DNA of 64,000 nucleotides, taken from NCBI RefSeq assembly GCF_032911445.1, contig NZ_JAWJEJ010000001.1:1550001-1614000 (forward strand), given 5' to 3'. A program made the position numbers and the translations under genes. Within the stretch, counting starts at the first letter, position 1; each line of letters begins with the position of its first letter. Of this stretch, positions 33,678 through 37,087 are shown piece by piece. The DNA comes from Sphingomonas sp. HF-S4. Its GTDB lineage: Bacteria; Pseudomonadota; Alphaproteobacteria; Sphingomonadales; Sphingomonadaceae. A model generated the notes under the pieces. It was not told the origin of the DNA. It saw only the letters and a program-made list of their open reading frames with translations, and searched no databases.

Positions 33678-34130
33678 ATGCGCGGACAGGTACTGGGCGT
33701 CGATCGCACCAGCGGCGAGGGCCAGATTTCGGGCGAGGACGGCCAGCGTTACTGCTTTCGCCCCGGTGACTGGAGCGATGAGCGCGGCCCCGCGGTCGGC
33801 GCGCGCATCGATTTCGCCACCGAGGGGAACCGCGCGCTGCGCATCTTCCGCCTGCCCGAATCGGACACCGCGCCGGTCGCCTACCGCCAGCCCCCCGCCA
33901 ACGACCGCAACAAATATGTCGCCGCCTTGCTCGCCTTCTTCCTCGGCACGCTCGGCATCCACCGCTTCTATCTCGGCCGCAACGGCACCGGGGTGCTGAT
34001 GATCGTCATCTCGATCACCATCGTCGGCCTCATCTTCACCGGTCTCTGGGCGTTCATCGACACGGTGCGCTACCTCGTGATGTCCGACGCCGAGTTCGCG
34101 CACCGCTACGCCCGCACCTATCCGGCATGA
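33678..34130 (+). CDS. TM2-domain membrane protein with cold-shock-like N-terminus
   Basis: This is a 150-aa inner-membrane protein. Residues about 1-60 (RGQVLGVDRTSGEGQISGED, then GQRYCFRPGDW) resemble the OB-fold/cold-shock-like module often put before TM2 domains. Residues about 78-130 are the TM2 domain with two membrane helices: KYVAALLAFFLGTLGIHRFY, then LGRNGTGVLMIVIS. The DRF-like turn is GIHRFYLGR. The function is not established. It overlaps the following dehydrogenase by ATGA, implying coupled translation. Confidence 0.85.
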   Translation: MRGQVLGVDRTSGEGQISGEDGQRYCFRPGDWSDERGPAVGARIDFATEGNRALRIFRLPESDTAPVAYRQPPANDRNKYVAALLAFFLGTLGIHRFYLGRNGTGVLMIVISITIVGLIFTGLWAFIDTVRYLVMSDAEFAHRYARTYPA

Positions 34131-35062
34131 AGGCCGTCCTCCCCGCGCTCGCCCGCCCGCTCGTCGAGCCGCACCTCCCCGCGGGGCTCGACGTCCACTG
34201 GTTCGCCAGCGCCGAGGAAGCCGAGGCGATGGTCGCCGACGCCGATATCGGCTGGGTCGACATCAACCGCCCACCCGAATGGGCCCGCGCGGTCGCCGCC
34301 GGCACTCGGCTCAAATGGCTGTCGACCATCTATGCCGGGCTCGACCGGCTCGACACCGCCCAGCTCGCCGCGCGCGGCACCCGCGTCACCAACGGCAGCG
34401 GGGTCAACGCGCACACGGTGGCCGAATATGCCGTGATGGGCGCGCTCGTCGCCGCCAAGCGCTACGACCAAGTAGTCCGCATCGCCGACACCCGCGAATG
34501 GCCCTATGACGCACCAGGCAAGCTCGAGCTGTTCGAGACCAGCGCATTGGTCATCGGCTACGGCACGATCGGCAAGCTGATCGGCGAGCGCCTCGCCGGC
34601 TTCGGCGTCGCCGTCACCGGCGTGACCCGCACCGGCGCGCCCGGCACGATCGGTCCCGACGCCTGGCGCGACCGCCTCTCCGAATTCGACTGGATCTTCC
34701 TCTCCGCCCCCGCCACCGACACCAGCCGTGCGATGATCGGCGAGGCAGAGCTCAGGGCGATGAAGCCCTCCGCCTGGATCATCAATGTCGGCCGCGGCGA
34801 GCTGATCGACCAGGACGCGCTGATCGAGGCGACCACCAGGCGCCGCATCGCCGGCGCGTTCCTCGACACCGTCACTCCCGAGCCGCTCCCGCCCGAGCAC
34901 CCGCTATGGACCGCGCCCAACATACTCCATTCGATGCATTTGTCGGGCCGCAGCCAGACGCGCATGTTCGTCCGCGCGGCGGAATTGTTCGTCCGCAACC
35001 TCCACGCCTTCCTCGAAGGTCGCCCGCTGGAGAATGAAGTCGACCTGACCGCCGGCTATTGA
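34127..35062 (+). CDS. D-2-hydroxyacid dehydrogenase-family protein
   Basis: This 311-aa NAD(P)-dependent oxidoreductase belongs to the D-isomer-specific family. The Rossmann loop is ALVIGYGTIGKLIGERL (about residue 145), followed by APATDTSRAMIG and WIINVGRGELIDQDAL with the catalytic Arg region. Glu in TPEPLPPEHPLW and His in HSMHLSG complete the expected triad. The substrate is unknown; glyoxylate/hydroxypyruvate-type or other 2-oxo acids are possible. It is translationally coupled to the TM2 gene and overlaps the convergent small gene by 7 bp. Confidence 0.9.
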   Translation: MKAVLPALARPLVEPHLPAGLDVHWFASAEEAEAMVADADIGWVDINRPPEWARAVAAGTRLKWLSTIYAGLDRLDTAQLAARGTRVTNGSGVNAHTVAEYAVMGALVAAKRYDQVVRIADTREWPYDAPGKLELFETSALVIGYGTIGKLIGERLAGFGVAVTGVTRTGAPGTIGPDAWRDRLSEFDWIFLSAPATDTSRAMIGEAELRAMKPSAWIINVGRGELIDQDALIEATTRRRIAGAFLDTVTPEPLPPEHPLWTAPNILHSMHLSGRSQTRMFVRAAELFVRNLHAFLEGRPLENEVDLTAGY

Positions 35063-35440: not shown

Positions 35441-35457
35441 TTACCCATCCAGGGTAA
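35441..35457. promoter_or_regulatory. Palindromic operator candidate, distal site
   Basis: TTACCC-ATCCA-GGGTAA is a 17-bp perfect two-arm palindrome (6-bp arms, 5-bp centre). The proximal site at 35477 has identical arms and spacing, exactly 36 bp away. Both lie in the divergent gap upstream of a protein whose N-terminus is an XRE-type DNA-binding domain, which suggests autoregulation. Confidence 0.7.
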
Positions 35458-35476
35458 TTTTCACCCTTGCCAACAT

Positions 35477-35493
35477 TTACCCCCCGCGGGTAA
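35477..35493. promoter_or_regulatory. Palindromic operator candidate, proximal site
   Basis: TTACCC-CCCGC-GGGTAA shares the 6-bp arms and 5-bp centre length of the site at 35441 but has a different centre, so selection on the arms is likely. It ends 10 bp before the ATG at 35504 and would block transcription or translation initiation when occupied. A weak TTGCCA -35-like element lies at 35467-35472. Confidence 0.7.
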
Positions 35494-35503
35494 GGCGCCC
35501 GGC

Positions 35504-37087
35504 ATGACCACGCTCGCAGGTTCCAAGATCCGCCGCTTCCGCGAGGAACGCGCCCTTTCCCGCGCCGCTTTCGGCGCCTGGTTCGACACGCCCGGCTCGA
35601 CCGTGCAGGGCTGGGAGGAAGACGGCAAGCGCGCCTCCCCCGCCGTTCTCAACCAGATCGCCGCCAACGGCATCGCCCATCACCAGGACTGGTACGTGCC
35701 CGTCCGCAACCTGGAGCAAGCCATGGGCTGGACCCCTGACAGCTGGACGCAGGCCGAAGCGCGCCAGCTCCCGACTTACCCCGATCAAGCCGCGCTCAAC
35801 GCCGCCACTGCGCAGATCGCCAACTTCCCCCCGCTCGTCTTCGCCGGCGAGGCGCGCGAGCTCACCACCGAGCTCGCCAAGGTCTCGCGTGGCGAGGCCT
35901 TCCTCCTCCAGGGCGGCGACTGTGCCGAGAGCTTCGCCGAGTTCCACCCCAACAACATCCGCGACACCTTCCGCGTCATCCTCCAGATGGCGGTCGTCCT
36001 CACCTTCGCGTCGAAGCTGCCGACAGTGAAGCTCGGCCGCATGGCCGGCCAGTTCGCCAAGCCGCGCAGCGCCGATACCGAGACGATCGACGGCGTCGAG
36101 CTGCCCAGCTACCGCGGCGACAACGTCAACGACATCGCCTTCACCGCGGCGTCGCGCATCCCCGACCCGCAGCGCATGGTCCAGGGCTACAGCCAGTCCG
36201 CCGCGACGCTCAACCTGCTGCGCGCCTTCGCCACCGGCGGCTATGCCAATCTCCACCAGGTCCACAAATGGACGCTCGACTTCATGGGCCGCAGCCCGTG
36301 GTCGAAGAAGTTCGCCGCCGTCGCCGATCGCATCGGCGAGTCGCTCGATTTCATGGAGGCGTGCGGGATCAACCCCGACACCGTCCCCCAATTGAAGGGC
36401 ACCCAATTCTACACCAGCCACGAGGCACTGCTCCTCCCTTATGAGCAGGCGCTCACCCGGCAGGACAGCCTCACCGGCGACTGGTACGACACCTCGGCCC
36501 ATTTCCTGTGGATCGGCGACCGCACCCGCTTCGAGGGCAGCGCGCATGTCGAGTTCCTGCGCGGCATCGGCAATCCGATCGGGATGAAGTGCGGCCCCAG
36601 CCTCGAGCCCGACGCCCTGCTGCGCCTGCTCGACACGCTAAACCCCGCCCGCGTCCCGGGCCGCATGACGCTGATCACCCGCTATGGCCACGACAAGATC
36701 GAAAAGGGCCTCCCGGCCCTGGTCCGCGCGGTCAAGCGCGAGGGGCATCCGGTGGTGTGGAGCTGCGACCCGATGCACGGCAACGTCGTCAAGGCCGCCA
36801 ACGGCTACAAGACCCGCCCCTTCGAGCGCATCCTCGCCGAAGTCCGCGGCTTCTTCGCCGTCCACCGCGCCGAGGGCACCTTCGCCGGCGGCATCCACGC
36901 CGAGATGACGGGACAAAACGTCACCGAATGCACCGGCGGCGCGATCGACGTGACAGAGCAGGCGCTGGCCGACCGGTATCACACGCATTGCGACCCGCGG
37001 CTGAACGCGGGGCAGTCGCTGGAGCTGGCGTTTCTGCTGGCGGAGATGTTGAATGACGAGATGGCGGAGCGACGGAAGGCGGCGTAG
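35504..37087 (+). CDS. Class II DAHP synthase with N-terminal XRE-type HTH domain
   Basis: This is a 527-aa fusion. Residues about 8-55 are an XRE/Cro-type helix-turn-helix: [32 protein letters not shown], then [13 protein letters not shown]. From Met74 ([20 protein letters not shown]) a full 454-aa class II 3-deoxy-D-arabino-heptulosonate 7-phosphate synthase follows, with [40 protein letters not shown] and [18 protein letters not shown]. It starts the shikimate pathway from PEP and erythrose 4-phosphate. The whole frame is open with coding-like codon usage. An internal ATG at 35723 has GGAG 6 nt upstream, so a short synthase-only form may also be made. Two palindromes lie directly upstream. 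Confidence 0.9.

Follow-up and report, generated by a model that had tools for sequence, protein, structure and literature searches.

What is a DNA-binding domain doing on the enzyme that opens aromatic amino acid biosynthesis, and does it act on the enzyme's own gene? The question arises from a gene of Sphingomonas sp. HF-S4 that lies in a 64,000-nucleotide (nt) stretch of contig NZ_JAWJEJ010000001.1 (positions 1,550,001 to 1,614,000), the whole of which we refer to as the window. Open reading frame analysis and family models assign to this gene (35504..37087, + strand) a 527-amino-acid (aa) protein in which a Cro/C1-type helix-turn-helix (HTH) domain is fused to a class II (type IIA) 3-deoxy-D-arabino-heptulosonate 7-phosphate (DAHP) synthase. 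A sequence-only reading of the window had noticed this fusion together with two palindromes upstream of it and had suggested that the enzyme could bind its own promoter. The comparisons described below make it highly likely that the fused enzyme represses a single target, its own gene, and the DNA-binding part most likely stems from a Cro-like cassette of a phage. The fusion and a matching site in its promoter occur in many Sphingomonas-like bacteria, in which the enzyme very probably limits its own production.

Pfam placed the HTH at residues 6 to 53 and the synthase at residues 76 to 513 of the one frame, in agreement with the reported joining of an HTH to a complete class II DAHP synthase. 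In an AlphaFold2 model of residues 1 to 79, block means of the predicted local distance difference test (pLDDT) were 95 to 98 over residues 1 to 60, and the predicted helical fold resembles that of phage repressors. The recognition helix of the model spans residues 31 to 40 (35594..35623, + strand) and contains GSTVQGWE. A concern voiced at the outset was that the HTH frame might be a mere untranslated upstream extension. This was ruled out by codon-position bias and by the rates of nonsynonymous (dN) and synonymous (dS) substitution: for the HTH coding region, the comparison of the window with 42 other fusions gave a median dN of 0.14 against a dS of 0.69. With a single frame and this coding constraint, the HTH and its linker (residues 1 to 73; 35504..35722, + strand) and the enzyme appear to form one translated chain.

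The synthase domain (35729..37042, + strand) matched PF01474 (DAHP_synth_2) over the entire model (1-438/438; E 7e-207), and the score with TIGR01358, the NCBIfam equivalog for class II DAHP synthase, was 689.6 bits against a cut-off of 614.7. Using phmmer, we aligned the type IIA structure 5uxm over its length from residue 74 of the fused protein (E 4e-195), and alignments with solved relatives started at a residue number of at least 74, past the HTH. The alignment spans 5uxm residues 179 to 225, with a 2-residue gap just after them, and thus includes helices alpha2a and alpha2b, which are missing from type IIB enzymes according to the accessible text of PMC6435475. The fused gene was the only class II match in the 4.44-Mb genome, and no class I DAHP synthase (PF00793, E ≤0.001) was detected anywhere in it, which makes the fused protein very probably the cell's only DAHP synthase. 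PF00793 also covers 3-deoxy-D-manno-octulosonate 8-phosphate (KDO8P) synthase, and this enzyme was likewise missing from the whole-genome scan at the same threshold.

Directly upstream lie two predicted operators with identical arms, TTACCC-ATCCA-GGGTAA (distal; 35441..35457) and TTACCC-CCCGC-GGGTAA (proximal; 35477..35493), neither assigned to a strand. Their starts are 36 bp apart, and the proximal palindrome ends 10 bp before the ATG. Both proved to be exact palindromes, as had been described, and they are the sole exact copies of TTACCC-N5-GGGTAA in the genome; the backward pattern had 0 exact matches. When up to two mismatches were allowed, the window contained just these two sites, compared with a shuffle mean of 0.39, and 5 of 100 shuffles reached two. 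Such loose matches were not enriched in the genome (14, versus 60 for the backward control).

If the palindrome serves the fused enzyme, it should be found where the fusion is found. From a contig scan for DAHP synthase relatives, we kept the best 80 of 588, comprising 36 loci with the HTH and 44 without. The palindrome (≤2 mismatches) was present in 36/36 fused loci, ending 9 to 12 bp before the ATG, and in 0/44 unfused loci, for which 260 bp upstream of the gene was checked; the survey of orthologous fusions that the sequence-only reading had called for thus came out in its favor. It also preceded the gene in 7/7 fused loci from whole genomes, among which L092 is identical in sequence to L038. 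Of 121 genomes belonging to the genus, 45 contain the exact palindrome and 50 the HTH: 41 have both, 4 the site only, 9 the HTH only, and 67 neither (Fisher p 7e-19, a value that ignores kinship among genomes). In the 9 genomes that have the HTH but no exact palindrome, an imperfect site occupies the equivalent place. Among the 60 exact sites in the 121 genomes, 53 are located no more than 90 bp ahead of an HTH gene. A wider regulon was considered and rejected: the seven remaining sites are orphans, five of them in four genomes without the HTH and two in genome G995, and inspection by eye of the frames beside all seven revealed no common gene. The proximal site is the conserved one. A second, distal operator (≤1 mismatch, 33- to 36-bp spacing) was recorded for 20/36 fused loci; the distal palindrome is, on this comparison, an addition rather than part of the core, and two operators are not the rule. 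Because the palindrome is kept before fused orthologues and the HTH evolves as protein, the proposal that the fused enzyme binds its own promoter is supported, and this promoter would carry the specific operator expected of an autogenous repressor.

A search with the HTH alone extended the pattern to a second enzyme. Of 397 genomes of the family, 69 had a match: 8 DAHP synthase fusions in the genus, including that of the window, and 61 matches in other genera, 57 of which fall in frames of 564 to 1050 aa and 4 in frames of 77 to 202 aa. In the fusions read from sister genera, the partner is glutamine-dependent nicotinamide adenine dinucleotide (NAD) synthetase (NadE; CN_hydrolase plus NAD_synthase), an identity established with Pfam for two fusions (L161 and L151), by motif for the remainder, and by sequence for L134. 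These fusions (L094 to L115 and L151 to L162) carry a homologous HTH and their own operator of the same layout, two 6-nt arms around a 5-nt spacer (6-N5-6), and they show two operator and helix types. In 22/22 loci of L094 to L115 the site is GTATCC-N5-GGATAC, 21 of them exact, at the same distance from the ATG as in the DAHP synthase fusions, and ten fusions with a diverged HTH (L151 to L160) have TTATC[CT]-N5 sites. A perfect 6-N5-6 repeat was found before the start of 0/8 unfused NAD synthetase genes. The HTH profile matched 57/296 genomes of the order and 4/385 of the class, all within the family Sphingomonadaceae.

Among the matches listed, 50 of 75 GTATCC-N5-GGATAC sites precede an HTH gene. 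Of the other 25, all orphans, 17 belong to genomes that gave no HTH match and 8 to HTH genomes; the ones that we read (7 of these 8, and L231 of the 17) all lie inside one coding frame. In L224 to L231, the site falls within a conserved frame of about 473 aa, presumably tldD, and looks incidental there.

We then compared recognition helices with operators over 108 fusion loci, which the removal of repeats reduced to 94 distinct ones (43 DAHP synthase, 51 NadE). Ahead of the start, the best inverted repeat of the 6-N5-6 form was perfect in 73, matched at 5/6 positions in 19, and at 4/6 in 2, while shuffles that kept only the base composition gave 0.7% perfect and 10.6% 5/6 repeats; 0/44 unfused DAHP synthase starts were preceded by a perfect one. 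Three types of recognition helix correspond to three types of operator. GSTVQ helices occur with a TTACCC left arm in 41/41 loci, the right arm being perfect in 33; SRTVY or SRTIY helices occur with GTATCC-like sites (41 loci), TQTVF helices with TTATC[CT] sites (10 loci), and the single GTTVQ helix with TTACTC in both arms. The residues that distinguish these types fall in the predicted recognition helix, residues 31 to 40.

The position of the operator suggests how it might act. A TTG lies 9 to 10 nt before the operator in 91/94 fusion loci, and the operator ends 9 to 12 nt before the ATG in 93/94. In the window, this conserved TTG begins a predicted −35 element, TTGCCA (35467..35472, + strand), 10 nt before the proximal operator. 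The usual spacing from the TTG would have the right arm of the operator supply the −10 element and place the transcription start near the ATG; this spacing and the GATAAT or GATACT of the NadE fusions point to GGTAAG (35489..35494, + strand), inside the proximal operator, as the −10-like element. From this geometry we infer repression and a promoter that is probably leaderless.

In the mechanism that we propose, the oligomeric DAHP synthase would bind the palindrome over the gene's own −10 element with the HTHs of two of its subunits. The bound enzyme would cover this element and block RNA polymerase, and enzyme concentration would thereby limit enzyme synthesis. Since two enzymes with no evident common ligand share one design, the simplest mechanism would be plain homeostasis of enzyme concentration. 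We consider it unlikely that the fused domain is instead an activator or a ligand-gated switch governed by tryptophan or substrate occupancy, in the manner of PutA and proline. Type IIA enzymes have a tryptophan site at the tetramer interface (as described in the accessible text of PMC6435475), and the synthase domain aligns with the type IIA enzyme 5uxm over its length, so that ligand binding could move the HTHs; however, an operator over the predicted −10 element favors repression, and NAD synthetase has the design without an evident ligand in common. Ligand gating of repression is possible. Far less probable still is that a separate regulator uses the palindrome and that the enzyme's HTH is a structural vestige or a protein interaction domain, as may hold for HppE-like enzymes. 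The palindrome accompanies the fusion and is missing where the fusion is missing, its sequence varies together with the fused recognition helix, and 4/5 distinct free-standing relatives of the HTH have a similarly placed imperfect repeat, all of which argue against a separate regulator.

Several observations weigh against autorepression by the fused enzyme. The HTH_31 match (E 2.9e-5) scored 24.7 bits, below the curated cut-off of 27, Foldseek with the HTH model returned no PDB match at E ≤0.001 (best 0.06), and the best sequence-profile match of the HTH to the PDB reached an E value of only 0.003. The full-length AlphaFold model was unusable (mean pLDDT 46) and hence gave no geometry on DNA. 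Moreover, an HTH fold by itself is no proof of regulation, as the HTHs on other enzymes illustrate; HppE and MPnS, both enzymes with an HTH, were among the structural matches. At L019 and L021, the sites are imperfect and a repeat other than the operator came out best in the stretch that was scanned, TTACTC right arms occur with GSTVQ and GSTIQ helices too, and the unfused nadE gene at L171 has a GTATCC site with 2 mismatches that spans its start codon. Finally, the helix-operator classes are largely clades, so few independent changes underlie their match. As to the fold assignment itself, the free-standing relative L148 exceeded the HTH_3 cut-off (24.8 versus 23 bits), and the NadE-type HTH of L109 had no match among the HTH family models.

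An internal start in the fused gene could yield a second product. GGAG (35713-35716) precedes the ATG of Met74 at 35723 (together 35713..35725, + strand), where unfused synthase genes have their Shine-Dalgarno (SD) sequence and start. Of 43 DAHP synthase fusions, 37 retain a junction Met, and 37/37 of these Mets have an anti-SD energy of −5 kcal/mol or better, compared with 28% of 493 control Mets (where one fusion had several junction Mets, the best was scored). In 32/37, GGAG lies at −10 of the junction Met, encoded through differing codons, and in many unfused DAHP synthase genes the equivalent position shows an SD-like stretch. The fusion thus seems to have taken the former ribosome-binding site and start codon into its reading frame, which makes an enzyme-only product plausible. 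The synthase-only form proposed in the sequence-only reading stands in part: the GGAG and ATG exist and are widely kept, but the Met is lacking in 6/43 fusions, and NadE junctions score like controls (8/45, 18%, versus 20%), so such a product would be neither general nor essential to the design. It is conceivable, at somewhat less than an even chance, that each gene makes two proteins, a long autorepressor and an enzyme-only form from Met74, whose ratio in mixed oligomers tunes repression. The kept, uniformly SD-like junction Mets speak for two proteins; the six fusions without one and the NadE junctions speak against, and the SD at the junction corresponds to the one in unfused genes, of which it may be a remnant.

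Where the module came from is suggested by free-standing relatives of the HTH, of which we found ten (73 to 109 aa). At four loci in whole genomes (L148 to L150 and L214), the HTH gene is divergent to a C1-like regulator, and a primase-like gene lies nearby on the same strand as the HTH gene; family scans covered the C1-like genes of L148 to L150 and the primase of L148, the rest being judged by resemblance. Two viral contigs from IMG/VR also carry a free-standing HTH gene, one of which, L222, has the same sequence as L148; L221 and L222 were noted as sharing this C1-like and primase-like layout. No match came from tblastn searches of phage and plasmid records with the free-standing HTH, or of plasmids with the window HTH. 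Four of the five distinct free-standing genes have a 5/6 6-N5-6 repeat 25 to 29 nt before the ATG with a TTG 9 to 10 nt ahead of it, and the fifth, L149, has a repeat at −31 with other arms; these repeats, at a level of match that about 11% of shuffles reach, are suggestive only. In a tree of hand-chosen HTHs (18 DAHP synthase fusions, 22 NadE fusions, and 10 free-standing; 73 columns), a split (100/98) separated the DAHP synthase fusions and seven free-standing proteins from the NadE fusions and the other three, which would mean two captures. Under the approximately unbiased test, however, neither a single clade of all fusions (p 0.13) nor a single NadE clade (p 0.58) was rejected. Our reading is that a phage cro-like cassette of HTH, promoter, and operator was placed before the enzyme gene and joined to it in frame across its former ribosome-binding site and start codon, and that NAD synthetase came to carry the same design in sister genera. 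We give about even chances to the broader proposal that a portable cassette of this kind was captured at least twice, each time turning an oligomeric enzyme into a single-target repressor, with helix and operator specificity shifting together later. Some of the free-standing relatives (among L148, L149, L150, L214, L221, and L222) end in a Cys-rich tail, CPRCE...CPL, and one, the 106-aa protein P0083, is named DAHP synthase in one source.

Other enzymes joined to DNA-binding domains are known. In Escherichia coli NadR and BirA, an HTH is joined to an enzyme of the regulated pathway and other genes of that pathway are controlled, whereas for the fusions described here, on DAHP synthase and NAD synthetase, only the gene's own promoter was found as a target. 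The closest likeness in kind is to PutA, in which the N-terminal part of a metabolic enzyme binds DNA and the protein is an autogenous repressor of its genes (accessible text of PMC5293562); here the corresponding arrangement is read from sequence alone. PutA differs in carrying a ribbon-helix-helix on a catabolic flavoenzyme and in being switched by proline and the membrane, whereas the fusions have a Cro/C1-type HTH on anabolic enzymes and one target promoter was found. The HTH differs from phage Cro/C1-type repressors (P22 c2 and 434) in its fusion to a housekeeping enzyme, and the type IIA DAHP synthase PA2843 of Pseudomonas aeruginosa (5uxm) shares the catalytic domain, its match beginning after the HTH. 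NAD biosynthesis is likewise under transcriptional control by NadQ, NrtR, and NadR, and the regulators that the accessible text of PMC5343134 describes for aromatic and NAD genes are either NadR or proteins of their own; none is part of NAD synthetase. We found no description of an HTH-DAHP synthase or HTH-NAD synthetase fusion in the open-licence literature, although one may exist elsewhere. If our reading is correct, enzyme levels at the entry to aromatic biosynthesis and at the final step of NAD synthesis can be set by the respective enzyme itself with no separate regulator. The natural helix-operator pairs could then yield a recognition code for a very small HTH, and the fusions would show how a phage repressor could plausibly have come to regulate housekeeping genes, besides offering a compact autoregulation module for engineering. 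A portable phage-derived module, if real, is perhaps the larger discovery.

A divergent frame of 106 aa (35376-35056) is present in the window, and an effect of the fused enzyme on it had been suggested in the sequence-only reading; a relative occurs in just 3/36 other fused loci, so control of this gene is unsupported. Further upstream lies a gene (34127-35062) that we take to be D-isomer 2-hydroxyacid dehydrogenase-like; tblastn matches to it, some partial and one at 29% identity, were found in 16/36 fused and 10/44 unfused loci.
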